64,000 nt of DNA, taken from the IMG/VR virus record IMGVR_UViG_3300044732_001099, positions 22,967-86,966 of that record. One strand, written 5' to 3'. The position numbers and the translations under genes were made by a program. Every line of letters starts with the position of its first letter. Within the stretch, counting starts at the first letter, position 1. Source of the DNA: a virus. Positions 15,501 through 53,642 of the stretch are shown here, piece by piece. The notes beneath the pieces were generated by a model, which saw only the letters and a program-made list of their open reading frames with translations, searched no databases and was not told the origin of the DNA.

Positions 15501-18500
15501 GGATTTACAACTGGAACAAACAGTTGTCAAATAAAACTAGAGGCACTAAAGATTACCAAGATGCTCTTGATAGATTTTACGCTGAATATTTAACAGCTGT
15601 AAATACAGAAAAGGAATCTGATGAAACAATAAGAAAGCAGACACCATTAACAAAAGATGAGTTTGAGCTAAATATTGCCAAAAGATCAAAGTTGTCAGAA
15701 ACAATCTTAAACTCTGTTATTACGCATTTTGGCTCTCTTACATCTAATAAGTTTGAGAATGTAAAGAAATATGGCAAAGGCAAAAGAACTACATTTGTAT
15801 CTATGGCCAAACAATCAAGTTCTGCTCATGATACAAAGTTAAAACTAGAACAAAGCATTATATCTAACCTACAAATCAATGGTGGTCTAATGCCAGATAG
15901 ATATGTCGATTTGTTTATTAATAGAAAAAGACCATTAAAAGTAAAAGAAGGACAAGAAAAAGCCAACTCTTACTTTACAATGACAGATAGAGGCATCAGA
16001 TACAGGCATAAAACAAATGATTCATCTGATTTAGGCGTAATAATAATGCCTATGGAAAATGGTAAGTTTAGAAATATGACACCAAATGAAATAAATAAAC
16101 TTACACAGTATGCTAAAGGTGCACAAACAAATATTAGTGGTATAATCAGAAAAGTATTTACTGATTTCTTTAATATGAGTAAGTCAAGCACAGCTAAAAA
16201 TGCAGCTAAGGTATTGTCTGTTCCAAAAGTAGGTAGCAACGCCCATGGTATAGAAACGCTTAGTGACGTACTTGCTCCGTTAATAGCATCAATGTATGTT
16301 TATACTGTTGAAAGAACCGTAGATCCAAACCAGATTACAGCAAAACAGCCTGTATATCCATTGTACAATCAAGCACTTCAAAATACTGCAAAAGATTCTG
16401 GACAAAAAGAAAACTACGGCAAAATAACCGATTCTACTATAGATAGCATTTTAGATAAAGATGCCGGCTCAAACATATTAAAAGATGGTGAAGAGTATTT
16501 CTTCCCAACTGGATTCTATAAAGAGCTTCAGGCACTTGCTGAAATCATGACTTATAATGAAAACAATCCTACAATTTTAAGTCTTGATGGCAGAAGAAAG
16601 CTTTACACTATTGGCAACTCTCATAATTTTAACTATAAGTTCTCTAATGGTAAAAATGATGCACTTGTTGAAAAGTTTGAAGAAGTAGTAAAGGGCCCAC
16701 ATACAAATCCAAATGCTAGAGGCAATAAGATATTAAACCCAATACTGGAAAGAAAAGGAGTAATATCTTCAACGCCATACATGATGGGTATAGACTCAAC
16801 TGGCAAAACTGCTGAGTTAAAAAACATGACTGTACAGGATAACCTACATGCGGCATTGGCGAACTTTACCAAAAATGAAAACCAAAAAGCATTAACCTAC
16901 AACATATCTCCAGTTTTAATACCAGTAAATAATGGCGGTAATCGCGGCAGACAACATTTGTTTGAAGTTAGATTAGGTCATTTTAATGGTAACGGAAACG
17001 GATTTTTAACAAAGCAAACTATTGACAATGTTGATACATTTAAGCTTGATGTAAGAAATATTACAAGTCAACTTAAACGAGGTTTTGCCATAAAAGAAGA
17101 GGCACAGGTTCATAGTATTAACAGGTGGATGAACTTTTTAATGAACCCAGCTAATAACAAAATCACAAACAACGCAAGTTCTTATTTTGCTTCACTAGGA
17201 TTAGGGTTATCACCAATCGATACAACTATACCTGGATGGAAAGCACAACGAGATGCAACTGTTGCTAAGTTAGTTGAGTATTTAAAAAATTATGACGCCT
17301 GGATAATTGATGATGATGTAGTTGGATTTGAAGGTAGTGGACTAAGATTAGGTTCTGATTTCTTAATAATCAAAGCTAACAAAAATGACAAGGGTGGCAG
17401 ATTGTATTTAGGGCACGATGCTTCTATGATGAATAAAGTGCTTACTAGAAATGAAGATGGGACTCAAAAATTCAGAAGTATTGCGCAACAACTATTTAAC
17501 TATTCAAACTATAATAATACAGTAACAATAGATGTTGACGATAATAATCAAATAACATTTGCGCTACATGAAGTATTAAGAACAGACGATTTTAATAATG
17601 AGCAGATTTATGTAAACTACATAGATAATCTAGGTTTAACGCAAACATATATGTTTACAGACGATGATTTACAAAAGATTGTAGATTCTTTGTTTGAAAA
17701 ACATTATAAAGAAACTAATGAAATAGCATTAGCTGATGGTTATAAAATGACTAGTGAAAACGTGTTTGACTTATATCCATATGAAGACGAAATAAAAGTA
17801 GTAGATGGCATCAACATTTATGGCACTACACCATCTGTTATTTGGAAAGGTCTTATTATTGGCCATGCTATGGTTAACTATTTTTCGGATCATGCTATAG
17901 AGGGTACAGAAGCAAATCATCTTTCTAGCGTTGTATATGAAAATGAAACTGGTTCAATAGCGTATGGTGTAAATAGAAACAAACGCGCATTATCGCATAC
18001 TTCTACAGGTTTTACTCCTTCATTTAAGACACATAATGGCATGGATGAAGAATCCAGAATTATGATTATTAAAGACCTAAAAGTAAACGCTTCTATATCA
18101 ACATTACTTGGAGAAATAAACAAAGAACACATTGTTTTTGATGGTCAAAGTTTTAACAATCCATTTTCAATGGAGATGTACTTTAACAGTATTGGAGGAA
18201 ATAATGGTAGCTTAAATAGAAGAATACAAAAATCTATTGCACAACAGTTTAACTACAAAGATGGTTCTACTTTCTTGAAAAAACATGCAGGGTTTATTGT
18301 ATCAAAATCTATGATGGATTCTAGTGTTGATATGGCTAACATGTTTGAATATATGTTAAATCCAGCACTAAGACTAGTCATTAAAGGTGAAGATTTGAAT
18401 AAAATATCATTTTTGAAAAAATCTGATATTGATAATCTAGCAAACGATAGTTTATACCAAAGGTATTTGATTTATTTTGATCAATCTGCTACTGAAACGG

Positions 18501-21500
18501 CATTAAAACAAACGCTTAGTAATATCAACAGTAAGTTTGGTAATCTTAAAACCATGCTTGAAGGCAGTCTTAAGTACAAAAACAATGCTCCGGCAGTTGA
18601 TTCTATTTTGGCAGATTGGAAAAACAGTCAGTTTAATGATACCATTGTAGGTCAATACGATTTTATTGGTAAAGTATTAGCAGATACCAACAATCAAGGT
18701 ATGCTGTCACAAGAAGGAGAAAAAGATCATAGTAGAGCTATTGAAATGCTTGTTGATTTCTATGCTGACTATAGGGCCAAAAATCCTGATACATACAAAA
18801 CAAAATATCCATATTTATCATCAATACAGTTCACTGGTAACAAAAAGGACCAAACCAAAGATTTTGAGATGCCATTTGTTGCATTTAATAAATCCGCAGG
18901 AGCAACGCATTCTGATGCAAATGGTCAGTTTAACCAGGGCAGGCCTATGCCAATGTTTGTTAAAGATGGCGACGCTGCACCTACTAACTTTTACGAACTT
19001 GTTGATTACTGGAAAAATCAAACAGAAGATGCTCCTTATGATAAATGGACATACATGTTTGACAATACACAGGAAATAACACAGTTAAATCCTGAAAGAG
19101 AAATAGATGATAATGAAGAATCTCCAATGGTTCAGGCAATGTCTATTATTCTTGCAAATCCAAATAGTTTAAATACAGGTCTTGCACAAGAAATAGCAAC
19201 AGATTTATCTTCTTTAATGCGCGTAGGATTAGAGAATGTAATGCGCTTTATAACAAATGAAGGTAAATGGAGTGAAGATGTAGACCAGAGAATAAAGGAT
19301 CTAAAAATACAAACAGGTGCAATATCATCTGAAACTGGTGTTGGTTTGTCTAATAAAGAAATAGCAACTATTGAAAACTTTGTAAAAAGTAAAATCAAAA
19401 AGTCTATGTCGCAATCTGATGATACGACAATGTTATCAGAGATTATCAGTGACGACCAAATAAGCTTAAATGTTTCTCATGGTGCAGTTACTAGGGCCCA
19501 GCAATATGTAGCAGCATTCTTAAGAAAAGAAGCTGTTAAAAGAAAGGTTGATGCGATGCGTCTAGTACAAGCTGGTGGTAACTTTATTGATATTGTGGAA
19601 CATAAAGAAACTGGTGAAGTATTTATGTTAGCAGAAGCATATAAGCATGCTGCAAAAATGGGTGTAAGTTTTGATTCTCTTTTTGATGTAAACTCTGTAA
19701 GAGGATTAAAGCATACTACAATTGATACTAAACCCGATTTATCTGTAGAACAACTAGCACAGGTTAGAGCTATTGATACAATCATGAATCAGGCAATAGC
19801 GGAAAATCCAGCAAATGAAAAGCAAATCAAAAAGGATTTTTCAAGGATTAAAATGAAATATCTAGCAGAGCAAAACCTACTAGATGTATCAAAAGGAGAA
19901 GCTATTGTTCCGGCAGTAATGTTCAAAAAGTTTAACATACCTGGAAATGTTGGACTCAATGAAATATTTAGATTGTATGGCAAAAAAGATGGCATTGTTA
20001 GTGAGACCAATCTAATGGAAGCCAGTTCAGACTACAATGCAACAAAAGAACTTATACAGAACTATGTAAATGATAACATTTCTTTTGAAATGAAATACAA
20101 TAGCAATGGTAAGCCTAGAGTTGAAGTGTTGTACAACGAAAACCAATCAGGATTAAATACTTACTTTGAGATGATGTTTGTTGATGGTTTAAACAAATAC
20201 CTCAAAGACAACTATAAAAAGTTTGGAAGTATTTATGCTAAGGTTGACAAGGAAATGGAGCTAAAGCATGGCGACTCATATAGAGCAATGAAAGAAGGTT
20301 CACTTGAAAAATCTGTAGAAGATATTAAGCAAGAACTAAGAACAAGACTGGCTGAAGAATCTACTGCTTTTGCTCAATCTGAAATAACAAACTTAGTTGA
20401 TAAATACACCGATGCTATAACATCTGTAGCCATAACGCTAAAAGATAACATTGGCATGCGTACTCCATCAGGACCAGGCTCTGGTTTTATTAACAACATT
20501 GTAGGATTTATAAATGATGCTAGTTCTGTTGGTTATGTAAATACTATCAAAAACCTTATTGATGGTTCTGACCAAGACGTTGACCAGTTTACAATCTACT
20601 ATTTGTCAAGTACAATGCTTGACTCTGGCAAGATGTCTATTTTAGAATACAACAATTGGAAAGACAAGCAAAAGAAAGATGGTAACTACAATGTGTTGTC
20701 TGATGAAGAAGCTAAGGTTATCAACAACAGGCTAATTAGACATCTTCAAAGATACTATTCCGATCCATTAAATGCTGAACTTACTATGGCAGCTATTGAC
20801 CTTGACCCGGTTAAAAAAGCTGCTGATGGTACATATAGAGAATTGTTTAAAGATGGTGACTTAGCTCATAACATTGGACATTCATTTGTATACAGAAATA
20901 TTGCAATGGATGGACAAGCAGTAGGCCCGTTTGCCAATGCTCAAAAACTACAAACATTGCTTTATTCTGGTTATAGCATGAACCAAAGAAGAGGCATTGA
21001 TTCAAGTATTTACAACTTTAAGATTAACAAAGTAGAAAATGCTATCGGCCAGTTAGAAGATGAGTACAGCAAAGTTCCAGTGTATATGGAGATGCTTATA
21101 AATGCAGCTACGGATAATCCAAAGTTGTTGATTTTAGGTGCAATGAACATCACAATGAACAATGCTGATATGGCATCTGCTATGATGTTTGCACCAAAAG
21201 ATATTCATGATTACATGAGGTCAATGCCCGGTAATGAAAATATGAATGAAGTGGATGCAGTATTAAACTTCTTGAAACTTGATGCAAATAAAGACATATT
21301 TAATTATGTCAAATCAAACTCAGGTATGTACAATGGTGGATTCTCGAGATCTTACTACAATACTGCATACAATTATTACAAAAAACTACAAGCGCATGGT
21401 TCAGAATATGAAGAACAATACAAAAATAACTTAAATAAAAATAGTGACATTTTTGATAGTATGGTCTCATTTCTTATCAATAATGTAGGATATGATGAGG

Positions 21501-24500
21501 CATTTATAAATACCGCAATAGCAACGGCTCAAACAGAAAACAAAGGTGATGTTTTGCTATCTATGATTAGAAATATCAATATCAATAACATTAGTAAAGA
21601 GATTTCTAAAAAACACAATATCCTTAAAAATGTACTTGATAACTTCATTGTAAACAATCTTGATGAAATTACAGATAACGAGTTTAAAGCTGAAATAGAA
21701 AAAGCGCTTAACTCTAAAGATGTTCAAGCATCATACGATATTGTTAACAGCATAGCTAGCATGTCGCCTATTGATAATTTGGCTAATATTAACGAAGAAA
21801 GCAAAGCATTGTCCGAGAAGTACAAACAGTTTTTTAAAGATCTAAAATCATATAAAGACAATCTCAAAAAGAATAAAAATCTTGCTAGAAAAACCGATCC
21901 TAGTTACATTAATGAAGTATATCTTGTCACAAAATATGCTATGCTTGGTGATATTATGAGCGATTTAGTTAAGGTTGCTAACATCAATCAGTTTAAACAA
22001 TCCAAAGCTTATGATCAAAAGAAATTTGAAAACGATTTTACGTTTGCCACTGGTTATACTATTGATGAACTTATTGGTATCTATGACAGATTTAACAGCT
22101 GGAAAAAAGACAATGGAGAAAGCAGCACAATAGGTGATTACTTTGACGCTAATCCCAATGAGAAAAAACCTATTGAAGCAGTAAGAGATACAGCTTTTAA
22201 AACAAAAGCACACACTATGGCTCAAGTTGATTTTTCTTATATGAGAGATAGCATAGAGTCACCTGTAACCGGAGAAGTAATAAACTACTACGAAGACTAT
22301 CACAAGATATTTGATTTTGCATCTATACTTCTTTCTAGGCCAGATGTAATGGAAAGCTTTAGAGCATCACAAATGTTTAAAGACATTAATTCTTCAATAT
22401 TTAACATAGAGTCTACGGAAATACAATCTATGATAGACACTATAACAGATAACATTGCTTACGATATACTGCCAGAAGCTAAAAGCATAGTTTTAAAAGA
22501 AGAGATTAGTAAGTATTTTGTCCATTTGTATCTTTCCGAAATCAACAACAATGGTTTTGAATCAAAAGTAAAAGAAGATATTTTTAAAGCATTAGAAAAG
22601 TTTAATATTCTTACGCTTCCAATGACAGCTGGTTTAGCAACGTCAAATGGAATGATGCATAATATTGGCAATCCTATTGGTGTAAGAAACTTTATTTCAA
22701 ACTTTCCTGAGTTTTTTGATACAGTAATAAGACAATCAGAAATGCAAAGGTTGAAAGAAATGGGTAGTAAGTTTACTGCACAAGACCTTGAATCTGCGTA
22801 TGAGTTTATAGACAGAATAGAAAAGTATTCATACAACCGTATGGATTATCTTGAAGTGCAAAAATCAAGAGTACAAAATGCTAATGAAAATGAGATGCTC
22901 AGAGATGGCTTTAATAAGCTGTCAAATGAAACACAAACATTGTTATCATTGTACCATATTCTTAAGAACCAGTTTGATACAAGTAGATCGTTTTTTGGTG
23001 AAGTATTGCCTAAAAAGTTTCTTATCGATTACTCTAAGTTTTTAAAAGAAGTATTACCTACTAAAGAAATAAGTCAGGATTTGAATAATATTTCAGACAT
23101 GATTTTGTCTAATACAAGTCTTGATTTGCTTAAAAATGAAAAACGCATTTACAAAGATGGTAAAGAGTTTTCACAGGCCCCGGCAGCTTGGTATGGTGTA
23201 GCCAAGCATTATAAAAAAACAATACAAACGCAAAAATCTAAAGTAGGCACGACAATAAGAACATTTGCTCTTGCTACTACTAATGGCATAAATGGAGTTG
23301 CGCTTACCCAGGGTTCTGCAACTAGAACATCATTGTCTAATGTAGTTCCGTTTGATTCTGTAATCAATATGTACAATGATACAGATGCAATGGGTAATCC
23401 TATTACGATATCACTTAGTTACACTCCGACAATACTAAGAAACTTAAATATACCAATGTCATTCTCATTGGATTTAAGGCCACACGCTTACATCAAAAAT
23501 ATATTGCATGGGCATTTAGAAAATGACATACAAAACGCTATTAAAAGGCAGACACAAGAAGGCGTAGAACTTACTCCACAGGATGTATTGCAGATAGTTA
23601 ATGATGTTATGTCAAGAGATTTAAACAATGTTTATAACAAAAAAGGTATTCCTGCATTGCAAGATAAGGCAACGGCAATGGATATGGAAAACTTAATAAG
23701 AAACAATGTTTTCAATATTACTGTTAACTCTATTTTGCAAAAACATGGCCCAAATGCTGATGCTGTATTGCAATCTTTAGATGGTAAAATGCTAAAAGAT
23801 GAATACTACTATAGCGATATAGCTCCATCGTATACATTGCACGCTGCATTAAATATGCTTAAAGCTGAAGGCAAACCGTTTACTATAGAAAATCTTAGAG
23901 CAATAGAATCTATACCATCAATAGAAATGTTTAGCGATACGTATGGCGTTCAATCAAACGAAGATGCTCCATTGGTAAACCTACTTGGTACCTTTGGTAA
24001 TTACTTTACCAGAGAAAATGCTAGAGATTCTGGTTATGTAGTTGCCGTAAACATGAAAGGTCCAAACGGAGTAGGCACAAAAGACTTGTTTTATGAAGCA
24101 GCAAAAGAAATATTTCAAGATACAAGTTTAAAGAACGATCAACTTAATACATTGCTTGCTAATATTCTTATAGCTGATTCTATAGGAATGTCTACAGCTG
24201 ATATGAAAAATAGAATAAACTCATTGTCCACTGTATCAACAAGCAATATAGATTTATTAAAAGAAGTTGCTTTTAAAACTTACTACAAACATGTTGATAG
24301 AAATATTGATGAAGATATAAGCAAAAGACATTCTACTAAATACCACAACATTAATAAGAGTATTGCAGAAGGCAAAACAACGGAATTATTTGGCTCTATA
24401 AAAACAACTGTAGAAACCTTGCAAAGGTATCAAGAAACGCCATATGAAGTTGGTGATATGATACATTTTCCGGATGGTATAGTTGGTATTGTTACTAATG

Positions 24501-27500
24501 TTACATCAGAAAACAATGTAAACTATGTTATTAACCATAAGCTTACAGACAATAGAAACATATTCAATGCACAAAGAGCTATTGTAAGTCTAGAAAACAT
24601 CATGCAGAAAAATAACACAAGGTTTGCGCTTGATGGTTTTGTTAGAACAATAGCCGGCATTATGCCAAATGTTGAGTATAGATATGTTAATGATGAAGAA
24701 GCTCGTCAAATACAAAGGTCTGAGCATGATAGTGTATCTTTCTACCAGGATGGTATTGTTTACATAAATGTAGATAAAGCTGATAGAGGTGTCGCTATTC
24801 ACGAGTTTGCGCATCCATTAACATTGGCAATGCAGATAGAAAAGCCTGAACTATTTAATGCAATAGCACAACAGGTATCTCAGTCTAGTGTAATGGATTA
24901 TGTAAGAAAAATGTACAAGGATGATCTTGATACTGAAGAAGCAATGATACTTGAAGCAATACCAACATATATTCAATTTAGGTATTACGCAAGATTAGCA
25001 CATGAAATGTCTCCAGAAGAAAGAGCAAACTGGGAAATGTTTTTTGCCGAGGCAGGTTCTATATTTAAAGAGGCATTGATTGGTGATGTAAATGCAGAAT
25101 CAAGTATTGACAATGTTGATTTTAAAACTGCTGACCTTAACTCTATATCTGATGCTATCTTAAATGATATGCTCAAAGGCAAGGAGTTTGTAGTCAGAAA
25201 TAAGGAAGCATTTAATATTGCCAGGTTCCTGCCATATACTATGCGGGCATCATCTGCTTCATCGGTTAAGAATATAAACTTAACAAATATAGATACGTTA
25301 TTTCAGCGAAAGTCGCACAATACAAAGGATGACAAAGCTAGAAGACAAATAATGGACTCTATCCAAGGAAATACTTTCTCTGGACTTTCGGGTACCTATG
25401 ACTTGACTATGAGAAATAAAGATTTCTATGATTCTAATGGTAATTACGATCAAAAACGCAAAGAAAAGTTTATTACTCAAATAGTTGAAAATGAAATGGC
25501 ATTTTATGGTGGTATTGAAAAAAATATCATCCAGTTCTTAGACGAACTTCAAACACTTGAACCATTAGCTGCAGCAAAGCAATCATTGTTTGCATCCTGG
25601 AATAAGCGCTACGATTTACCTAATGCTACAGAAGTACAAAAAGAGCAACTTACTCAGAACGTACAAAAAATGATGAACAAACTTGGCTATAATCCAAACC
25701 TAGACCAAGCAATGATGCTAAGTGATGCGGAAAAAACACTTGGATTAAAACTGCCCAATGGTGTAAAACTTGACAACACAATTGTCATTGTTCATAACAT
25801 TGGTAAGCCAGCACAAGAAATATCAATATTAAATGTTTCTCCAGAGTACCTTAGCAATCATGGTATGGAAAAGAACAATATTGCTGCAGCATTTATTGGA
25901 GAAAACTTGACTAATAAAGAAAAGAAACGTGCTAAGAAATTACAAAAAGTAACTTTATCTAATGATAACGGCCATATTGAAGCAGTTAAAACAGCTGTAA
26001 TTGCTATGGCTATTAAAAAATCTAGTCCTGGTACGGTCATTAGAAAAGTAGGTGCTATGCATGTAAATGGTAGTAACATATCTGTAAGAAGTCGTGATGT
26101 AGATGACACTATAAGACAGATTGAGTTGCTTGTTGATAATGTTCCGCAATTGCGTGATAATCTAGAAGTGGATATAAGAGATATTGTATCTGATAAATCT
26201 TTGTACAACATGGACTTATACAAAGTACCTGTTGGAACTAGACTGCTCAACTATTTTAGAACGCTAATATCTACTTTAAAGCCTAATGATAACTATAAAA
26301 AAAGTGTACAAAACACAATAGATCAAGGTATTAAAGTATTTGAAAATGGTGATAACTCATTTTACCAAGATATTCAAAAAGCTGTATTTGGTAGAATAAT
26401 GCACTTGGCAGAAGAACTAGATAGCGATGTGGCAAAGGCTGCCAACGAAGAGTATCAGTTTTTACTACAAACGTATAGAGAGTTAACTGGTTACAATGAG
26501 ATTAACACTCAAAGATTTAACGAGCTTTCATTTGATGAAAAGCTAATACAGACGGCCGATCGCTGGACAGGACAAATAAGAACATGGTTATTTGACCAAG
26601 TTGACCTTGCTTCTAGAAAAGGTGTTGATGAAATGGTACCGTTTAACAAAGAGTTGAACAAAAGAACAAAAACACTGAACACGCTTTCTGGTAATATTTT
26701 AAATTATGGTCTTGACAAAACACATGATTTATTCAAACCATTATTTAAAAAAGCAACTGGTTATGATCAAAATGGAAAAGAAGTTCCAATATCAACTCAC
26801 GAAATACATTGTGATATAAATGACGCTGAAACTGCAAGAGCATTAGCTAATAAAGAAATAACTACAGAGCAATTTGAGTTTGGAAAATGGTTGGCCGATA
26901 GTATGTATGAAGAGTTTGTTCAATATGTAATGACTGTTGAACGCAAAAACATATCACAGCGCGCAAATATGACCGAGGTAGAGCTTAGAGCAGCAGCAGA
27001 AAATGAAGTAGCAAGACGATACAAAAGAGGTATGATGCCTGTATTTGTACGTTCTACAGGTTCTGCTTTAAGTGAAGGCAAGTTGATGGATGCATTAAAT
27101 ATGTACATGAAAAATGCTGGTAGATTTATTGGTGGTGCATTGTATGAAGAGTTTACTCAAACCGAAGATGCAGAGTACCAAAAAGAATCATTCAGAAAAC
27201 TTATGTCTCCATTCTGGAATCAGTTTCAAAATGCAGAACTATACGGCGGTTCATTTAGAATGAAACTTCTTGGACTAGATCTAAAGGTTAGAAATCAAGA
27301 TAGATCTCTTGAAGTTATTGCTCCGGAACTACAAAACTCATTGTCATATAACCTTCAGAACATAGGCAACTATACTATGATGGCATCTAAGCGCACTAAA
27401 CACATGCAAAGAGCAGTAGCATCTGCAAACATTGCAATGGATATGCTTAGAGGCGAAGAAGCAATGCGTGGTGTAAATACTAAAGACGCAAGAGAGCATG

Positions 27501-29029
27501 TAGAAAACTATATCAACAGACAGATTTATGGTAATCTTCCAGAAATGCCTAAAGTAATGCTTGGCAACATATCTGTAAATATTGACTACATGTTAGATGC
27601 TAGTAATAGATTCATAAATATGGCGCATCTTGCTATTAAACCTGGTGTTGCAATGAAAAACGTAGTAGCTACAACATCTAAACTTTTAATCAATGCTTTA
27701 ATAAATCAGATTTCAGGCAAGAACTTTAATATAGCTAATGTTACTCGTGCTGTAGAGCAAATGTTTTCTAATGGTGAAAAAATACGAGCATTAAATGAAA
27801 AGTATCAGATTGTAAACATGAGTGAAAAAGATTTGATTAATCACTTCCAACATGTAGTAAGTAAAGCAAATGCTACTGAACCAGATGCTCAGATGATACT
27901 TAACTGGTTTGGTGATTATTACAATCAGCTTATTGGCGGTATTGCTCAAATGATTAACGATGGCACTTATGATGCACACGATGAGGAAGGCAATTACGAT
28001 GAAACCAAAGACAAAAGATTTGAAGGTGAAGATGGTGAGTATATCAAAAACGCTATTATTGAACAACAATACAAAGAAGGATATCATGTTCTTGATAATG
28101 GCAAAATGACACACGCATACACTCAAAGACAAGAGAACCATGTAAAATTGCAAGTGCAAAGATTTGTTGGTGAGTTAACTGATCCTAAATACAAAAACTT
28201 AGCATCAAGTTATTCATTTGTTCGTGCTGCATCATCAATGAGAAGCTATATGTACAACGTAGCACAAGCATGGTGGAAAAACCCTAGTCAAACAGTACAT
28301 CTTGGTGGTTTTAAAGTAATTGAGGTTGATGGTAAAAAAGAACCTGTTTGGGCACCAGAACTTACAGAGGGTATGATTAACACATTAATTTATTGCGCTA
28401 AAGGTTTGAGAAATGCTGTAAAAACAGGTACATTTGATGATTATAAAAACATGTCTAGTTTCCAAAAGCGTAATCTTATAGCAATGGCTACGTTTACAGG
28501 TATCATGGCCGGTGTTTATCTTCTAGCTGATTCAATGTTATACGATGAAGATAGAAAGAAAGTTAAAAAATACCGTTATGAAAAAGACCCTAAAACAGGT
28601 AAACGTAAAAGAGTAGATATTGATGAGCCTTGGATTTCTGAAAGATTACTATCTATGTTGTACGATACAAAATATGATATGCCACTAAAAGGTGATTTGT
28701 CTATGACTGAAATGTTTGCCAAAAACATACTTTTAAAAGGTGTTGAAGAACAATTGTCATATGTATCTCCATACAGAATGTTCCAAGATATAGGCAATAT
28801 GCCATCAACTCACATTATGCAAGCTGATAATGTAGCTCAAACATTTGTTTCTACATTGATGTTGCCTTGGACATTATACCAACAGCAAGATATTGAAGGC
28901 CTTACTAATGAACTTGATGAATATTTCTACGATTTAAGTAAGAATATGCCTCTTGGTGGTGGTTACCGTGACATACATGACACATACGATTACATGTTAA
29001 ATTATATTGGTGAATCAACTAAAAAATAA
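6518..29029 (+). CDS. Giant polyvalent protein: SF1 helicase, two zincin motifs and DFDID-type RNA polymerase fused (7,503 aa)
   Basis: One uninterrupted frame of 22.5 kb. Features in order: Gly/Ala-rich hydrophobic segments at about residues 325-390 and 590-612; long coiled-coil-prone stretches (about 720-1000); an SF1 helicase with Walker A GYGGVGKST at 1476-1484, Walker B DE at 1552, motif III GD at 1596-1597 and motif VI Arg1768; a Lys/Pro/Glu linker at about 1815-1945; a zincin motif HEISH at 2486-2490 with a possible third ligand in AEHLAD; an RNA-polymerase region at about 3600-4990 with DGQSF (3875), GMRTP (4646-4650) and DQDVD (4685-4689); an SH3/KOW-like patch near 5978; a second zincin motif HEFAH at 6095-6099; and a hydrophobic helix near 7319-7342. 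Such fusions match the known class of large polyvalent proteins, which are packaged and injected with phage DNA; crAss-like phages use a virion RNA polymerase with a DFDID motif. Delivery and early transcription here are inferred. Most of the length stays unassigned. Confidence 0.9.
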   Translation: MAGPDPNNNNLPEQTNNNPEPQKQQFVDPITLKLNNITEYEAKELGWTVVPMTLEDSYRVNQPSIGNMSPMQYQKLYRTYMEEDMYEAALSRRYDQNRDASYDFLQSIRRPAESKPGLPIQAHPKAWGISPENASKYQYVDSQKRLSEIGYEYGLRGTRRQVLNNEQIAESRKKYFDPKANGGLGEFKSIEAYQRSNHFGSPYRYAEDGTKKMLVMDNANKMWVEVDEDDVIAGNQLRSTWGTKEKDSGFFQHVSDSFYNGTVDLTTNMWGSMVETMGTMGKFMSGSDDVNSWQKWGRSVQNYGNAQKSKISEAAENEGMFGSWRAGFGTVSNMLPQLAAQAGIGFLTGGASAYVQALGKGGQFAARMMNGAPHMFGAIYAANGMNEEGKAAGLSDNDRMFMNLLAGGTVFAAEKFTSKFLGATGIADGFANKASREIVEQNMAKGTSEVMKKFAPTIISKTASAAEKEAAKEAASSTLGRYYLNGLKTVVATGKLGKNLGQNLLNGTQRLLSAPIRFGYTTTPKTLMGRTRGFVASAWEEGWEEEIEKRMNYWFKEAYNAGMIGIDGPDKYATPGKGMFDNTVHSKPYDEFFAGAIGGGIMGAIFGGRMKRNFSDKHAIEYALQFGGDFDKAYDALVSWKERVGFDSKITDPSDNFLSMFPETERKDIKSRNDIAFEALVEDVRAASQIIKTFKLTDPDKISRIAGGDMRLLTDTVDNLVNAKKLSTEIEGLKVQLQNTKPEDVNYKELERQIQEKEVDLKQVSKLADDVLSGKAIENYRAQTFVRGLLVNNEYNNLYNSIENETDPEVKRQKAQKAFDDSINNAETRDLWKDQEKALNLIYNSREILEQFKQSKATIEERTKQSNDFVGEFDSIDFNNPDSIIEVLQKVNGNHLQEIVGKKIDDISKKINDEREKIQVELDNDFNSVREKFGFDDVTFDDLYNKTGNDEIDAAIDEVLGKKKDKVERFSSLNGVDNEVKNAKTLLKNRGAVKYVPGGGIDTRTGEWNNGDYFTQQANQRKYKKVNKDVETEIDEKTFVSMQDAAKAQGKDSFEYNGEMFIAEDSNQIKVDGKKAVDRSTLVDDSQLFDFLEIDDVNELFLKMPTVGGMNIREELNKIAKEYDETKVLTAQMKEKLKEINKNITDQEEMLSVYKWAKMLSENKILSPVQEEYMDMQTFNEVNLPAYINKLAVDRSYFMNVAVSTLSKDDRDNKLNELKDNVIKMQAHVYNELVAELNGDDIVVNGQTVKFPGEISLDSSETEVMQAYQWMHYFIQNLTPDQKNEFKGAFDKFWSAKVESKDTVPSAQEQGMFLEGFDLMLDFEAFKNGYTTSKYYNKNNSYRELFYYHAINMMMNVDPMIAFGAISNVIDAVDASQKFELDKSKYPAGDHTAEQIMNVMIGITHLSENIKRNEANPDVAFIELLDHVKSTMKIGASREGRSNKAKGLYERVKNSSTGKYNTNGKHIKDNVMSFFGYGGVGKSTFVIKTLSEIALSLGKKNFVFIAPNIEQKNILENTVKNIFPKGVHAEFYLVSDFVKKQDQYKDYVIFADEISLYSDEEKNSIAFNYSKIGGKKISTVDNVGFIDESNTVFLLGDTLQAPPSGEIYDNSPRIEQFTQHGFNITSVKRSSFIEIYKIQTEFRRNAKNNELGPPQLFGYSYSEDDNVKKGVKLNNDKDGFLAESKAAVESGIGYIIVHSEKEYNDIINDISPDKHDRVFLMTQLNKSPQGRTLVGEVYVYMPYSTTDTKSQYNNNKLYNMYMLTAVSRASQFVSVYTGDGLGNKNSVKVSEDKIESFDDSVEAKVERKQQLWNRVSGVVKGLTAVKAVPAPVKNTNKPKAPVVQTDDLNQQEEAPKENAAANNTKGKGVKSNSNSPKKTTQVKTNNRKRKTTNKNKKQYEEQQETPEEETNEPVTAYEQNVSNQGDMPEDELNNLDGNQDTDTDHSNIESSIDNGEFGLTLKTGENNVNLVTTFVNGNPFVVVVGGTYRDKNGKIIKVTRIISNDDGTYSVKTSELKMVIPLEKFSELALSPSIDILDKYENALISFTQSGILTLFGKTIGYTPAMGPLTDKKALAAKYQEMANTTAMLYKNLGQRFEVKIDIVKGMPTVDWNGSVNTAFPYVLQVSIDNGKGFEYFTTHYLQDPQRANKTVPDNPQQENLEVYNNTLFGIVEKLYNSNRTEFYTSATKNNISASSFIGFHKDIPVMSYSQVKDMVGMYGMELTETFQGVNKNGIAETYAIAHFGNKDNGQKIIFQSVTASNMNDEQKNLMLNEVNRMRGILQNAVNQILPNEAVNKQALQGTDSIFAFNNSFALLNNAVIAQKLYTEKDAENKTTIEERLKLRLEVLNDLAAFLYPVKMLYPYKHESLVSQFRLNTKLQSGKEVTGIEYMSTVKGLFLRMPVMDISAGILLDDTKGLASKITNQQELENYTSSFAEIQSELEDILGEGIQLGIIKSDLYHGFVDKLGKIHMNMHNSAFNPKTLSHEISHYVSEFLITDEYQAVLFDEVDKKYGVTQKQGNWRNDLDARRTVAEHLADDGERYKSDRRNLKGISKVMRSFFDWFNRFMSRIGIINDKINDFYYDLYVAKKYKSLSGMALNTVRDEMPYDSLYSRIIYDDSSFNTVANNFFYDNQIARQVANNVAEIAAKEVIMPSMNRRMFLDGAMSFTDMINRIENNSREKVMYDTDENGNTIYKEQVINGKSMFLPVIRELTVDYTRPFLRWNYNATDENGNSVTGLHLQYYDESIKGYKTAVPNSQGVFFTEKRQREEFRRLLQKSVDEFEIETVNGLVSVVDKTVEGKMKLKGIISNKDKVLYKNAMLLNSKVFKAMINRIFPSLDVDTIINRDGQVRYSDILESLIRVQDANIRKNEEDTNPMDKQSDIMKLMLNTIPVYQFLPDGSVVEMRGKKLNYEVANKILTDIHSNLWIGNSQDGIEAFAKSMEMFINSKMMNNTNPTELNSDAKFISAYSIYKTYFDPQAKQRTDKYYYPSHTRIYNWNKQLSNKTRGTKDYQDALDRFYAEYLTAVNTEKESDETIRKQTPLTKDEFELNIAKRSKLSETILNSVITHFGSLTSNKFENVKKYGKGKRTTFVSMAKQSSSAHDTKLKLEQSIISNLQINGGLMPDRYVDLFINRKRPLKVKEGQEKANSYFTMTDRGIRYRHKTNDSSDLGVIIMPMENGKFRNMTPNEINKLTQYAKGAQTNISGIIRKVFTDFFNMSKSSTAKNAAKVLSVPKVGSNAHGIETLSDVLAPLIASMYVYTVERTVDPNQITAKQPVYPLYNQALQNTAKDSGQKENYGKITDSTIDSILDKDAGSNILKDGEEYFFPTGFYKELQALAEIMTYNENNPTILSLDGRRKLYTIGNSHNFNYKFSNGKNDALVEKFEEVVKGPHTNPNARGNKILNPILERKGVISSTPYMMGIDSTGKTAELKNMTVQDNLHAALANFTKNENQKALTYNISPVLIPVNNGGNRGRQHLFEVRLGHFNGNGNGFLTKQTIDNVDTFKLDVRNITSQLKRGFAIKEEAQVHSINRWMNFLMNPANNKITNNASSYFASLGLGLSPIDTTIPGWKAQRDATVAKLVEYLKNYDAWIIDDDVVGFEGSGLRLGSDFLIIKANKNDKGGRLYLGHDASMMNKVLTRNEDGTQKFRSIAQQLFNYSNYNNTVTIDVDDNNQITFALHEVLRTDDFNNEQIYVNYIDNLGLTQTYMFTDDDLQKIVDSLFEKHYKETNEIALADGYKMTSENVFDLYPYEDEIKVVDGINIYGTTPSVIWKGLIIGHAMVNYFSDHAIEGTEANHLSSVVYENETGSIAYGVNRNKRALSHTSTGFTPSFKTHNGMDEESRIMIIKDLKVNASISTLLGEINKEHIVFDGQSFNNPFSMEMYFNSIGGNNGSLNRRIQKSIAQQFNYKDGSTFLKKHAGFIVSKSMMDSSVDMANMFEYMLNPALRLVIKGEDLNKISFLKKSDIDNLANDSLYQRYLIYFDQSATETALKQTLSNINSKFGNLKTMLEGSLKYKNNAPAVDSILADWKNSQFNDTIVGQYDFIGKVLADTNNQGMLSQEGEKDHSRAIEMLVDFYADYRAKNPDTYKTKYPYLSSIQFTGNKKDQTKDFEMPFVAFNKSAGATHSDANGQFNQGRPMPMFVKDGDAAPTNFYELVDYWKNQTEDAPYDKWTYMFDNTQEITQLNPEREIDDNEESPMVQAMSIILANPNSLNTGLAQEIATDLSSLMRVGLENVMRFITNEGKWSEDVDQRIKDLKIQTGAISSETGVGLSNKEIATIENFVKSKIKKSMSQSDDTTMLSEIISDDQISLNVSHGAVTRAQQYVAAFLRKEAVKRKVDAMRLVQAGGNFIDIVEHKETGEVFMLAEAYKHAAKMGVSFDSLFDVNSVRGLKHTTIDTKPDLSVEQLAQVRAIDTIMNQAIAENPANEKQIKKDFSRIKMKYLAEQNLLDVSKGEAIVPAVMFKKFNIPGNVGLNEIFRLYGKKDGIVSETNLMEASSDYNATKELIQNYVNDNISFEMKYNSNGKPRVEVLYNENQSGLNTYFEMMFVDGLNKYLKDNYKKFGSIYAKVDKEMELKHGDSYRAMKEGSLEKSVEDIKQELRTRLAEESTAFAQSEITNLVDKYTDAITSVAITLKDNIGMRTPSGPGSGFINNIVGFINDASSVGYVNTIKNLIDGSDQDVDQFTIYYLSSTMLDSGKMSILEYNNWKDKQKKDGNYNVLSDEEAKVINNRLIRHLQRYYSDPLNAELTMAAIDLDPVKKAADGTYRELFKDGDLAHNIGHSFVYRNIAMDGQAVGPFANAQKLQTLLYSGYSMNQRRGIDSSIYNFKINKVENAIGQLEDEYSKVPVYMEMLINAATDNPKLLILGAMNITMNNADMASAMMFAPKDIHDYMRSMPGNENMNEVDAVLNFLKLDANKDIFNYVKSNSGMYNGGFSRSYYNTAYNYYKKLQAHGSEYEEQYKNNLNKNSDIFDSMVSFLINNVGYDEAFINTAIATAQTENKGDVLLSMIRNININNISKEISKKHNILKNVLDNFIVNNLDEITDNEFKAEIEKALNSKDVQASYDIVNSIASMSPIDNLANINEESKALSEKYKQFFKDLKSYKDNLKKNKNLARKTDPSYINEVYLVTKYAMLGDIMSDLVKVANINQFKQSKAYDQKKFENDFTFATGYTIDELIGIYDRFNSWKKDNGESSTIGDYFDANPNEKKPIEAVRDTAFKTKAHTMAQVDFSYMRDSIESPVTGEVINYYEDYHKIFDFASILLSRPDVMESFRASQMFKDINSSIFNIESTEIQSMIDTITDNIAYDILPEAKSIVLKEEISKYFVHLYLSEINNNGFESKVKEDIFKALEKFNILTLPMTAGLATSNGMMHNIGNPIGVRNFISNFPEFFDTVIRQSEMQRLKEMGSKFTAQDLESAYEFIDRIEKYSYNRMDYLEVQKSRVQNANENEMLRDGFNKLSNETQTLLSLYHILKNQFDTSRSFFGEVLPKKFLIDYSKFLKEVLPTKEISQDLNNISDMILSNTSLDLLKNEKRIYKDGKEFSQAPAAWYGVAKHYKKTIQTQKSKVGTTIRTFALATTNGINGVALTQGSATRTSLSNVVPFDSVINMYNDTDAMGNPITISLSYTPTILRNLNIPMSFSLDLRPHAYIKNILHGHLENDIQNAIKRQTQEGVELTPQDVLQIVNDVMSRDLNNVYNKKGIPALQDKATAMDMENLIRNNVFNITVNSILQKHGPNADAVLQSLDGKMLKDEYYYSDIAPSYTLHAALNMLKAEGKPFTIENLRAIESIPSIEMFSDTYGVQSNEDAPLVNLLGTFGNYFTRENARDSGYVVAVNMKGPNGVGTKDLFYEAAKEIFQDTSLKNDQLNTLLANILIADSIGMSTADMKNRINSLSTVSTSNIDLLKEVAFKTYYKHVDRNIDEDISKRHSTKYHNINKSIAEGKTTELFGSIKTTVETLQRYQETPYEVGDMIHFPDGIVGIVTNVTSENNVNYVINHKLTDNRNIFNAQRAIVSLENIMQKNNTRFALDGFVRTIAGIMPNVEYRYVNDEEARQIQRSEHDSVSFYQDGIVYINVDKADRGVAIHEFAHPLTLAMQIEKPELFNAIAQQVSQSSVMDYVRKMYKDDLDTEEAMILEAIPTYIQFRYYARLAHEMSPEERANWEMFFAEAGSIFKEALIGDVNAESSIDNVDFKTADLNSISDAILNDMLKGKEFVVRNKEAFNIARFLPYTMRASSASSVKNINLTNIDTLFQRKSHNTKDDKARRQIMDSIQGNTFSGLSGTYDLTMRNKDFYDSNGNYDQKRKEKFITQIVENEMAFYGGIEKNIIQFLDELQTLEPLAAAKQSLFASWNKRYDLPNATEVQKEQLTQNVQKMMNKLGYNPNLDQAMMLSDAEKTLGLKLPNGVKLDNTIVIVHNIGKPAQEISILNVSPEYLSNHGMEKNNIAAAFIGENLTNKEKKRAKKLQKVTLSNDNGHIEAVKTAVIAMAIKKSSPGTVIRKVGAMHVNGSNISVRSRDVDDTIRQIELLVDNVPQLRDNLEVDIRDIVSDKSLYNMDLYKVPVGTRLLNYFRTLISTLKPNDNYKKSVQNTIDQGIKVFENGDNSFYQDIQKAVFGRIMHLAEELDSDVAKAANEEYQFLLQTYRELTGYNEINTQRFNELSFDEKLIQTADRWTGQIRTWLFDQVDLASRKGVDEMVPFNKELNKRTKTLNTLSGNILNYGLDKTHDLFKPLFKKATGYDQNGKEVPISTHEIHCDINDAETARALANKEITTEQFEFGKWLADSMYEEFVQYVMTVERKNISQRANMTEVELRAAAENEVARRYKRGMMPVFVRSTGSALSEGKLMDALNMYMKNAGRFIGGALYEEFTQTEDAEYQKESFRKLMSPFWNQFQNAELYGGSFRMKLLGLDLKVRNQDRSLEVIAPELQNSLSYNLQNIGNYTMMASKRTKHMQRAVASANIAMDMLRGEEAMRGVNTKDAREHVENYINRQIYGNLPEMPKVMLGNISVNIDYMLDASNRFINMAHLAIKPGVAMKNVVATTSKLLINALINQISGKNFNIANVTRAVEQMFSNGEKIRALNEKYQIVNMSEKDLINHFQHVVSKANATEPDAQMILNWFGDYYNQLIGGIAQMINDGTYDAHDEEGNYDETKDKRFEGEDGEYIKNAIIEQQYKEGYHVLDNGKMTHAYTQRQENHVKLQVQRFVGELTDPKYKNLASSYSFVRAASSMRSYMYNVAQAWWKNPSQTVHLGGFKVIEVDGKKEPVWAPELTEGMINTLIYCAKGLRNAVKTGTFDDYKNMSSFQKRNLIAMATFTGIMAGVYLLADSMLYDEDRKKVKKYRYEKDPKTGKRKRVDIDEPWISERLLSMLYDTKYDMPLKGDLSMTEMFAKNILLKGVEEQLSYVSPYRMFQDIGNMPSTHIMQADNVAQTFVSTLMLPWTLYQQQDIEGLTNELDEYFYDLSKNMPLGGGYRDIHDTYDYMLNYIGESTKK
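10910..11885 (+). other. SF1 helicase domain inside the giant protein
   Basis: Encodes about residues 1465-1790. In order it shows motif I GYGGVGKST (Gly1476 to Thr1484), motif II IFADEIS (Asp1552, Glu1553), motif III FLLGDTLQAPP (Asp1597), an S/TxFRRN-like motif IV region (TEFRRNAKN) and motif VI AVSRASQFV (Arg1768). This ordering is the layout of UvrD/RecD-type superfamily 1 helicases. All key residues appear intact, so ATPase activity is plausible. Confidence 0.8.
13973..13987 (+). other. First zincin-type HExxH motif of the giant protein
   Basis: Codes for HEISH (His2486, Glu2487, His2490) inside a hydrophobic helix (LSHEISHYVSEFLI). About 40 residues later comes TVAEHLADDGERY, where the Glu may be the third zinc ligand, followed by a Phe/Arg-rich helix. 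This arrangement is common in phage and plasmid polyvalent metallopeptidase domains. Protease activity is not shown. Confidence 0.6.
18125..21488 (+). other. Core of DFDID-type (crAss-like) RNA polymerase domain in the giant protein
   Basis: About residues 3870-4990. Segments recalled from crAss-like virion RNA polymerases occur in the right order: DGQSFNNP...MYFNSIGG (3875 on), GMRTPSGPGSG (4646 on), then about 30 residues later GSDQDVDQFTIYYL with three aspartates 4685, 4687 and 4689 at the metal-binding DxDxD, then DGQAVGPFANAQKLQ (4798 on) and LINAATDNPKLLILGAMNITMN (about 4860 on). The canonical block is GSDFDIDKL; here Phe is Gln and the following Lys is Gln, but all three Asp are kept. 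The fold belongs to the two-barrel polymerases related to eukaryotic RNA-dependent RNA polymerases and cellular RNAP. The outer borders of the domain are uncertain. Confidence 0.75.
24800..24814 (+). other. Second zincin-type HExxH motif of the giant protein
   Basis: Codes for HEFAH (His6095, Glu6096, His6099) in the context GVAIHEFAHPLTLAM, preceded by a beta strand (YINVDKADRG). This is a typical active-site helix of zinc metallopeptidases. A candidate third ligand is a downstream Glu in DTEEAMILEAIPTYI. It lies about 1,400 residues after the polymerase motif. Confidence 0.6.
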
Positions 29030-33108: not shown

Positions 33109-33972
33109 TTAAAAGATGTAACGTATTTTGTTCCATGGGATAATACTATCATGTAAAGATACAAACCGATTGACAAGTTTTGCTTTCAAATCGTGACGAT
33201 ACCTGATATTCTCAGACCCAAAAGAACTGGTTTTATTCTCTTGCCATTCTGGATTCCATAATAATTTTTCCACGTCAGCCGGCGCGTTCTCCAGGTTATG
33301 TATATGCATCTTCTCATTATGAGTTAGCATGATACATTCTGCGAGGACGTGCTTTTTTATTTTATCATCTACAATGTTATTTACTTGTTCAAACAGCTCT
33401 GTGTACAAAGCTTTTGACTCTGCCAATGCCAGTATAGGACTGAAGTTAATGTGTACGTCATAGCCTGCAGCATAAAAATCATTGATAGCTTTGATTCGGT
33501 CTACAATCTTTGATGTGTCTGGTTCCAGAATGTCAGATAGTGACTGCGGCATTAGAGAAAATCTAATCCGTATCTTTCTATTTGGATTGTAATCTAGTAG
33601 CTTTTGATTAACATACTTTGTGGCGAATGTAGCCATAGCAATAGGATGCTCTACAAAGAAATCAAATATCTTTTGCCATTCATGATACTTCAAGTGCAAG
33701 GCAAAGTCTTCGTTGCAGGAAATATCGTAGGTAGTGTAAACTGGATGTGTCTGATTAGGCTTGGTAACTGGAGTAAATAAAGCATGCTTGTTAATGACAT
33801 CTAGTATTTCATCTACATTAGTAGCCACAGACAACCCTTCCGGCTTATTACGCCGCATGTAACAATAATGGCACTTATATAAACACCCATGAATGAAAGA
33901 AGGAGTAATGAAATCACTACTCCTTCCAGATGGTTTTATATCTAATGCTTTTCTAACTACTTTTGTAATCAT
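33109..33972 (-). CDS. Radical SAM protein, spore photoproduct lyase-like
   Basis: 287 residues from ATG at 33972. An upstream ATG at 34116 would add 48 residues but would run through the neighbouring gene, so I prefer the later start, which leaves a 4-nt gap. Cys30, Cys34 and Cys37 in the segment HGCLYKCHYCYMRR form the CxxxCxxC cluster that binds the 4Fe-4S centre of radical SAM enzymes. The rest resembles the spore photoproduct lyase family: FATKYVNQKLLDY, RIRFSLMPQSLSDILEP and an ISCNEDFALHLKYHEW stretch. Members repair thymine dimers or carry out related radical chemistry; a DNA-repair role here is inferred. Downstream residues are intact with no frameshift. Confidence 0.8.
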   Translation of the reverse strand: MITKVVRKALDIKPSGRSSDFITPSFIHGCLYKCHYCYMRRNKPEGLSVATNVDEILDVINKHALFTPVTKPNQTHPVYTTYDISCNEDFALHLKYHEWQKIFDFFVEHPIAMATFATKYVNQKLLDYNPNRKIRIRFSLMPQSLSDILEPDTSKIVDRIKAINDFYAAGYDVHINFSPILALAESKALYTELFEQVNNIVDDKIKKHVLAECIMLTHNEKMHIHNLENAPADVEKLLWNPEWQENKTSSFGSENIRYRHDLKAKLVNRFVSLHDSIIPWNKIRYIF

Positions 33973-33976
33973 AATT

Positions 33977-34255
33977 TTAATTGTATCTAAAACCCTTACA
34001 CCAATTTTTATAATTAACATGTCTGTCATGGTTATCAATAGAGCTGTATAACCATTCAAGTATTCTTCCTGCTGGCTGCTTTGTGTCAACATCATATCTA
34101 ATGTCATCAAATCCAAAGTACATCACATCGCCAAAGCATGCTATTGTACCGATGTCATTTGCTACCCATGACTCTAGAATCATGTCTTGTTTTTTGCAGA
34201 ACGCATCCATGTATGCTTCTACAATGTTTTTGTATTTAGTCTTTAAGTTGCTCAT
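33977..34255 (-). CDS. Small hypothetical phage protein
   Basis: 92 residues. The N terminus is an amphipathic helix (LKTKYKNIVEAYMDAFCKKQ), followed by an aromatic beta-rich core (WVANDIGTIACFGDVMYFGFDDIRYDVD) and a helix plus a Trp/Tyr-rich end. The pattern fits the small soluble proteins that fill phage early operons. It overlaps the end of the 57-residue gene upstream by 20 nt and sits 4 nt before the radical SAM gene. Function not recognised. Confidence 0.75.
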   Translation of the reverse strand: MSNLKTKYKNIVEAYMDAFCKKQDMILESWVANDIGTIACFGDVMYFGFDDIRYDVDTKQPAGRILEWLYSSIDNHDRHVNYKNWCKGFRYN

Positions 34256-34430: not shown

Positions 34431-34504
34431 TGGTCATGACAGGATTCGAACCTGCATTGTCCTCCGTTTCCTTCGGATATCGTCACCAGTTGGAACACAT
34501 GACC
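34431..34504 (-). tRNA. tRNA-like element, divergent or degenerate
   Basis: On the minus strand the ends GGTCATG and CATGACC pair over 7 bp as an acceptor stem, followed by A as discriminator. A T-arm GCAGG-TTCGAAT-CCTGT is fully canonical, including TTCGAAT. The length (74 nt) fits a type I tRNA. The middle is odd: the best anticodon stem is TCCG/CGGA with loop AAGGAAA, which would read GGA (Ser) but lacks the U33, and the D stem pairs at only two positions although CTGGT resembles a D-loop. It could be a decayed tRNA, or a tRNA mimic. CCA is not encoded. Confidence 0.5.
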
Positions 34505-52805: not shown

Positions 52806-53642
52806 ATGTACGAAACTAAGGTTTATGATTTGCTCGTAACTAAGATGCGAGCTTTTTTTAGGGGCAGAGGGTTCAAGGAAGTTCCTACTCAATCAAGGTT
52901 ATCGATACTTGCGGCATGTGAGAATCCGCATAGTATTGCCACTTTTAATTACAATGGCGATATCTGGCCTTTACCGCAGACAGGACAGATGTGGTTAGAG
53001 CATGAGTTGCTTAATAATCCTGAATGGGATGGGGTGTATTGTATTAGTACGAGCTATAGGCAGGAGAAGAATCCGATACCTGGTCGTCATGAGTTGATAT
53101 TTCCTATGTTTGAGTTTGAGAGTAAGGGTAATATGAATGTGATGCTAGAGCTTGAAAAAGATTTGTTGCAGCAATTAGGGTTTAGCACTGGTGTTGATGT
53201 TGATTATGACGATATCTGTGTTGCCTATGGCACTGAGATTATCGAGAATGAGCATGAATCAAGGTTGAGAGAGGAGCAGGGCGATGTAGTATTTTTGAAA
53301 AACTTTCCATTGCGTACTAATCCTTTCTGGAACATGTACTGTAAGTATGCTGATATCTATGCTAAGTGTGATGTCATCATGTATGGGCAGGAGACTATTG
53401 GCTCGGCACAGAGAAGCAGTGATCCAGAGAAGATGCGTGAGAACTTTTATACAATTGAAGGTGGCAAGTATGCCGAGAAATTGTTTGAGTTGTTTACCGA
53501 GAAAAGAGTTGTTGCTGAACTAGATAAGTTTTTGCAGCATAAGTTCTTCGATCGTTTTGGTGGTGGCATAGGAATGACCAGACTAGCAAGAGCCTGGAAC
53601 ATCAAGGAGTTTGAAAACAAAATACAGGATGTCCGGATATGA
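52806..53642 (+). CDS. Class II aminoacyl-tRNA synthetase catalytic-core homologue (AspRS/AsnRS-like)
   Basis: 278 residues, about half of a full AsnRS, and no N-terminal anticodon-binding OB domain. Motifs in order: LPQTGQM (56-62, as in AspRS/AsnRS), motif 2 STSYRQEKNPIPGRHELIF with Arg85/Glu87 and MFEFE at 101-105, the NEHESRL...DVVFLKNFPLRTNPFWNMY block (148-178), DVIMYGQETIGSAQRSSD (189-206), and motif 3 GGGIGMTRL (252-260) with Arg259. The usual motif-3 Asp (GxDRL) is Thr. Such stand-alone cores act as amino-acid activators, asparagine synthetases or protein/tRNA modifiers; which applies here is unknown. Possible substrates include the tRNA-like element at 34431. Last codons overlap the next gene by 4 nt. 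Confidence 0.82.
   Translation: MYETKVYDLLVTKMRAFFRGRGFKEVPTQSRLSILAACENPHSIATFNYNGDIWPLPQTGQMWLEHELLNNPEWDGVYCISTSYRQEKNPIPGRHELIFPMFEFESKGNMNVMLELEKDLLQQLGFSTGVDVDYDDICVAYGTEIIENEHESRLREEQGDVVFLKNFPLRTNPFWNMYCKYADIYAKCDVIMYGQETIGSAQRSSDPEKMRENFYTIEGGKYAEKLFELFTEKRVVAELDKFLQHKFFDRFGGGIGMTRLARAWNIKEFENKIQDVRI

Follow-up and report, generated by a model that had tools for sequence, protein, structure and literature searches.

The textbook account of de novo pyrimidine synthesis has a single route, which passes through carbamoyl phosphate, carbamoyl-aspartate and dihydroorotase. The protein family described here, phrog_29758, is comparable to this CarAB-PyrB-PyrC route in that it is proposed to deliver the same intermediate to PyrD, but it would do so with one enzyme in place of several unrelated ones, and the genes for those enzymes are missing from most carriers. 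Its closest folds are those of asparaginyl-tRNA synthetase (AsnRS), with whose catalytic domain it shares the overall fold, the arginines of motifs 2 and 3, a flipping-loop Glu, and a Glu103/Arg203 pair that matches the amide pair. AsnRS recognises the amide through one Glu and one Arg (PMC7387524), while E279 of the human enzyme contacts the Asn moiety (PMC10831071). In contrast to AsnRS, the family has no OB domain, reads xTR rather than FER in motif 3, carries an invariant Lys187 and Arg250, and forms a separate clade found in pyr operons rather than in a translation role.

Two further systems use a comparable scaffold. Archaeal asparagine synthetase A (AS-AR, PDB 3p8t) is likewise a stand-alone AspRS/AsnRS-like core of ~290 residues, but its match to the family profile has an E-value of only 0.0022, and no link of the family to asparagine synthesis was seen. 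E. coli AsnA also employs a class II-like core for small-molecule synthesis, with a motif 3 (GGGIGQSR) similar to the GGGIGxTR of the family; unlike AsnA, the family has no Pfam AsnA match, and has Glu (FEFE) where AsnA has Asp (WDWE). For the chemistry, the threonylcarbamoyl-adenylate synthase TsaC/YRDC of t6A synthesis provides a precedent, combining an amino acid, CO2 or bicarbonate, and ATP into an N-carbonyl-AMP (PMC5951830), as we propose for the family; however, the TsaC/YRDC fold is unrelated, and its product goes to tRNA with no cyclisation. The fold of the family is of a known kind, an aaRS-like metabolic paralogue; what lacks a known counterpart is the proposed reaction and its pathway, and the open-access papers searched contain no report of a pyrimidine role for such a paralogue.

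Fold and active site of the viral protein

The stretch of DNA analysed here (the window) comprises 64,000 nucleotides of a viral record of 86,966 bases (IMGVR_UViG_3300044732_001099, positions 22,967 to 86,966) that carries terminase, ERF annealing protein and RusA resolvase genes. The gene under study is a real ORF (Table 1). A Pfam search (E up to 10) returned PF00152 (tRNA-synt_2, class II D/K/N) alone, at 7e-13 over residues 10-232, with no match to the AsnA family, while in PHROGs the full-length profile of phrog_29758, whose function is uncharacterised, was matched over residues 5-263 (2.3e-87). Comparison of an AlphaFold2 model (pLDDT 92) with PDB structures gave AsnRS and AspRS cores as the best matches (E 1e-17 to 1e-15). 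Because the residues of the protein align to the catalytic domain alone, the N-terminal anticodon-binding OB-fold that is a hallmark of AsnRS is absent, and class II motifs 2 and 3 are present with their catalytic arginines; Pfam, the PDB comparison and the alignment all confirm an earlier note on this DNA, which had described exactly this combination. Against the NCBIfam equivalogs for AsnRS, AspRS, archaeal AsnA and EpmA, the protein falls far under every cut-off, with 25.3 bits versus 342.6 for AsnRS (TIGR00457), 18.1 bits versus 322 for archaeal asparagine synthetase A (PRK06462.1-3) and 12 bits versus 286.9 for EpmA (TIGR00462). Elsewhere in the window lie a single very long ORF and a gene for a spore photoproduct lyase-like protein, the latter possibly a phage enzyme for the repair of DNA photoproducts (Table 1).

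Table 1. Positions in the window of the phrog_29758 gene, its active-site elements and other features
Feature	Position	Strand	Length	Remark
aaRS-like core, phrog_29758 family, candidate dihydroorotate-forming enzyme	52806..53642	+	278 aa	
Glu39 of ACE(N/D)P	52920..52922	+		aligned with flipping-loop Glu of AsnRS (human E279)
Motif 2, YRQEKNPIPGRHELIFPMFEFE, residues 84-105	53055..53120	+		Arg85, Glu87, His95 invariant
Lys187	53364..53366	+		invariant in phrog_29758 family; no basic residue there in AsnRS
ETIGSAQR, residues 196-203	53391..53414	+		Arg203 aligns with AsnRS and AspRS side-chain Arg
Arg250	53553..53555	+		invariant in phrog_29758 family; His in AsnRS (PHSGFG)
Motif 3, GGGIGMTRLARA, residues 252-263	53559..53594	+		Thr258 precedes catalytic Arg259
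Single long ORF	6518..29029	+	7503 aa	
Spore photoproduct lyase-like protein	33109..34116	-		Pfam SPL 3e-28, radical SAM
tRNA-like RNA	34431..34504	-		Rfam 37.7 bits; no other tRNA-like match in the viral record

We aligned the active site of the family with those of AsnRS, AspRS, AsnA and EpmA. Motif 3 of the viral protein reads GGGIGMTRL, compared with GFGLGFERL in AsnRS, LAFGLDRL in AspRS and GGGIGQSRL in E. coli AsnA. The earlier note had seen here a replacement of Asp by Thr; the Thr is real, but the residue it stands in for is Glu in AsnRS, Asp being the residue of AspRS. This Thr is kept before the motif-3 Arg in 85/85 sampled relatives, as are the conserved motif-2 residues and Arg259, and remoter relatives have Gln or Pro at the position, never Asp or Glu. 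Thr258 is the normal state of the family, and its conservation across the sampled relatives rules out decay of motif 3.

Glu103, within motif 2, aligns with Glu251 of E. coli AsnRS at a position where AspRS and AsnA have Asp, although it is not an absolute marker for Asn because one AsnRS in the alignment also has Asp there. The alignment places Arg203 opposite R396 of E. coli AsnRS and R489 of AspRS. We infer from this that Glu103 and Arg203 stand at the positions of the Glu and Arg with which AsnRS reads the amide. Lys187 and Arg250, both basic and peculiar to the family, could bind an additional carboxylate. Overall, the protein appears to be an active, stand-alone, amino-acid-activating core of class IIb.

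Distribution and pyrimidine gene context

The family occurs in at least 598 viral stretches (IMG/VR scan) and in more than 120 cellular loci; among bacterial and archaeal genomes, 123 relatives were found, of which 80 (~50-66% identical) were kept. Cellular carriers include Patescibacteria, DPANN, Chlamydiae, Midichloriaceae, Bacteroidota, Gammaproteobacteria and others, while known phage carriers are the Prochlorococcus myoviruses P-SSM2, P-SSM5 and P-SSM7, in which the gene is annotated 'tRNA ligase', and huge phages. In the tree, the family is a single clade separate from AsnRS, although a very long branch joins the two and makes the exact sister group uncertain. The viral members are spread over at least four parts of the tree, namely Bacteroidota-type phages (including the window protein), cyanophages, the huge phages L085/L167, and L084, and this scatter suggests repeated exchange with cells. 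A separate full AsnRS scored over the cut-off in 23/50 carrier genomes, ruling out that the gene is the AsnRS of these cells. Together with the separate clade and the low AsnRS score, this bears out that the family lies outside true AsnRS, a point for which the earlier note had proposed a phylogeny.

In cells, neighbour clustering placed pyrD, pyrE or pyrF beside the gene in 21/77 loci, true PyrD (dihydroorotate dehydrogenase) being found in 13/77 and PyrE/PyrF (orotate phosphoribosyltransferase/OMP decarboxylase) in 20/77. For the PyrD count, Dus was split from the PyrD cluster, and the Patescibacteria neighbours, which are Dus, were left out. If the background is taken as 3% for each locus, the binomial probability of this linkage is ~1e-14. 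The linked loci span Alpha- and Gammaproteobacteria, Myxococcota, Bacteroidota, Chlamydiota, Dependentiae and Patescibacteria. The genes often form a compact operon, with an order that varies among phyla: gene-pyrF-pyrE-pyrD-prs in Bandiella (L190), gene-pyrD-pyrE-pyrF in Chlamydiae (L224) and pyrD-pyrEF-gene in Chitinophagales (L201).

Many Patescibacteria loci have Dus and dnaX as neighbours instead of pyr genes; this region recurs in L174, L178, L181, L183, L218, L226, L229 and L234, mostly without pyr genes, and has a tRNA-Gln(UUG) 1-4 kb downstream of the phrog_29758 gene. In one Cytophagaceae and two Patescibacteria genomes, an argininosuccinate-lyase-like protein is encoded directly upstream of the gene (L168:2488-4904, L174:2634-4934, L208:3847-4938), joined by an amidohydrolase in L168 and L174, with the lyase alone in L208. 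The ArgH-like lyase and the amidohydrolase are possible further pathway partners, found in few loci.

The enzymes upstream of PyrD are largely missing from the carriers. Among 50 carrier genomes, CarB was over the cut-off in none, PyrB (ATCase) in three and PyrC (dihydroorotase) in two, each of the three being positive in 14/14 control genomes, while PyrD was over the cut-off in 31 and PyrE was clear in 26 (23 over the cut-off). Just two of the 26 PyrE-positive carriers had PyrB over the cut-off. Within a gammaproteobacterial order, PyrB was found in 0/5 carriers versus 25/31 non-carriers (p = 0.0012); in Chlamydiota alone, exclusion of PyrB was not significant (0/2 carriers versus 24/114). 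The family is linked to pyrD, pyrE and pyrF in cells most of which lack CarAB, PyrB and PyrC, with PyrB and PyrC retained in two carriers (G043, G087), PyrB in a third (G063) and fragments of CarB in another (G085). Any single absence is weak evidence because most carrier genomes are MAGs. The Coatesbacteria genome G043 (locus L170) has two separate pyrB-pyrC pairs alongside the aaRS-like gene, and no CarB over the cut-off.

Three Chitinophagales retain a second DHOase-like protein; its presence would be equally compatible with carbamoyl-aspartate, the intermediate before dihydroorotate, as the product. Most DHOase-like matches (~200 bits) share a contig with a PreA-like protein and appear to be catabolic dihydropyrimidinases. 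Around half of the carrier genomes, mainly small ones of DPANN and Patescibacteria, have no recognisable PyrE; there the enzyme may supply an exchange with a host or do something else. Carriers with PyrD must have some source of dihydroorotate, since the enzyme would otherwise serve no purpose, and the aaRS-like gene is the only recurrent candidate.

A pyrimidine link is also seen in phages. In four cyanophage contigs, pyrE lies within one gene of the phrog_29758 gene (141-146 bits, cut-off 106.8), followed in one of them by a purM-like gene, identified by eye. Work on metabolic genes of host type in cyanophages includes pyrE (PMC9983427). A benefit to the phage from a supply of dihydroorotate is therefore plausible. 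The viral genome to which the window belongs carries no further pyr gene. Across 80 Bacteroidota-type phage loci, the neighbours were mixed and no biochemical partner gene recurred, which speaks against a conserved operon partner in these phages.

The cyanophage tRNA-Asn cassette

In cyanophages, a chimeric tRNA-Asn(GUU) lies just downstream of the gene, starting 10-18 nt after it, in 76/76 loci with enough sequence (for example, L083:8796-8882 and L082:8783-8870), and a reverse search with a DNA pattern for this tRNA found the gene directly upstream in 67/67 testable copies. The tRNA has the loop YYGUUU(A/C), U1-A72, G73 and usually a long class II-type variable arm, and stem changes are compensated among the sequences, as judged by eye. 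It also has U37, plus C33 in nine sequences, which is unusual for a translating tRNA. The gene and tRNA stand in differing genomic contexts in P-SSM2 and P-SSM7. In P-SSM2 (L082, NC_006883.2), ARAGORN and BLAST place the tRNA-Asn at 162082-162169 of the record, right after the 'tRNA ligase' gene, whereas the RefSeq annotation puts it ~2 kb off, at 164094-164179, inside another CDS; the RefSeq coordinates look shifted.

No such tRNA adjoins the gene in Bacteroidota-type phages or in cells, and most relatives have no adjacent tRNA, so a tRNA partnership cannot be the general function of the family. ARAGORN found no tRNA in the window, and Rfam found nothing near the gene in seven related loci. 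The tRNA-like match listed in Table 1 has good acceptor and T arms, a broken D stem and a putative anticodon loop AAGGAAA (A33), and this RNA is probably degenerate, which speaks against a tRNA partner within the window. The cassette is not predicted by a model of pyrimidine bypass. Three readings are conceivable: the cyanophage enzyme may charge the tRNA, the tRNA may make up for asparagine that the enzyme consumes, or the tRNA may regulate the transcript.

Proposed reaction and alternative explanations

A role of the family in pyrimidine synthesis, through the supply of dihydroorotate, is likely. The fuller claim, that this supply bypasses CarAB, PyrB and PyrC, most likely starting from L-Asn, HCO3- and ATP, and that it is auxiliary in phages, we consider evenly balanced, and the route from Asn and bicarbonate, substrates to which homology points, has an even chance or slightly less. 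In this mechanism, the Asn site would bind L-asparagine with its alpha-amine carbamylated by CO2 or bicarbonate. The arginines of motifs 2 and 3 would, as in class II synthetases generally, direct the carbamate carboxylate onto the alpha-phosphate of ATP, giving Asn-N-carbonyl-AMP and PPi, and the beta-amide nitrogen would then attack the activated carbon, closing the six-membered ring and freeing AMP. The adenylation half would be the chemistry of TsaC/YRDC, and such a ring closure resembles that of dethiobiotin synthetase. For an adenylating enzyme that binds Asn, formation of dihydroorotate would be simple chemistry, provided that the adenylated carboxylate is the Asn carbamate. The overall reaction would be L-Asn + HCO3- + ATP -> L-dihydroorotate + AMP + PPi, with N3 derived from the beta-amide nitrogen and C2 from CO2, and its mass balance is closed (C4H8N2O3 + CO2 - H2O = C5H6N2O4). 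In cells, the co-encoded PyrD, PyrE and PyrF would take dihydroorotate to UMP, while in phages an auxiliary metabolic gene would feed the PyrD/E/F of the host and sidestep the regulated CPSase and ATCase steps.

The same pathway could be served by other substrates: the beta-carboxyl of Asp would be activated, as in AsnA, and coupled to an N-C donor such as urea, or carbamoyl-aspartate would be made, so that dihydroorotate would derive from Asp. This shares the operon and gene-loss evidence, and is favoured by the likeness of motif 3 to that of E. coli AsnA, an Asp activator, and by the DHOase-like protein kept in some Chitinophagales. We regard it as unlikely given the invariant Glu that the family has in common with most AsnRS, where AspRS and AsnA have Asp, and given that clustering of cellular neighbours found no conserved urea, carbamoyl-phosphate or amidotransferase gene beside the phrog_29758 gene. 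An ammonia-dependent asparagine synthetase of the archaeal AsnA (3p8t) type (Asp + NH3 + ATP -> Asn), with an incidental pyr linkage, would account for a stand-alone AspRS/AsnRS-like core of similar size and for the weak NCBIfam and 3p8t matches, but the score is far under the curated cut-off, and the absence of CarAB, PyrB and PyrC and the multi-phylum pyr operons would be left unexplained, making this reading quite improbable.

The remaining alternatives have the enzyme act on a macromolecule. If the enzyme were a minimal AsnRS acting on a tRNA or a similar RNA, which in cyanophages would be the dedicated downstream tRNA-Asn(GUU), this would explain the constancy of the cassette in both search directions and its occurrence in differing genomic contexts; this reading is nonetheless improbable, as Bacteroidota-type phages and cells have no such tRNA beside the gene, the anticodon-binding domain is absent, many carriers already have an AsnRS, and the pyr operons and loss of CarAB and PyrB find no explanation. 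An amino-acid ligase for a protein or lipid, acting on a host or viral molecule, has a model in EpmA, a known stand-alone class IIb paralogue, but is very improbable: the EpmA score is minimal, Arg203 marks binding of Asp or Asn rather than Lys, and the Bacteroidota-type phage loci show no recurring gene for a target. The earlier note had suggested such a modification of a molecule of the host or the virus. This is not supported, given the cellular pyr operons and the genomes without CarAB, PyrB and mostly PyrC, which point to small-molecule metabolism; what probably survives of that interpretation is the active stand-alone core and the link to asparagine.

Returning to the Asn and bicarbonate route, we tentatively suggest, at somewhat under an even chance, that one-step ATP-dependent synthesis of dihydroorotate is a second entry to pyrimidines in parasites, symbionts, Patescibacteria, DPANN archaea and several lineages of phages, with the marine cyanophage version locked to a dedicated chimeric tRNA-Asn. 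If true, this would add an unfamiliar enzyme activity and explain how organisms with pyrD, pyrE and pyrF but without CarAB, PyrB and PyrC are supplied with pyrimidines, and metabolic models of Patescibacteria and intracellular parasites would be corrected. It would also give a reason for the abundance of the gene in phages, where one gene may raise nucleotide supply.
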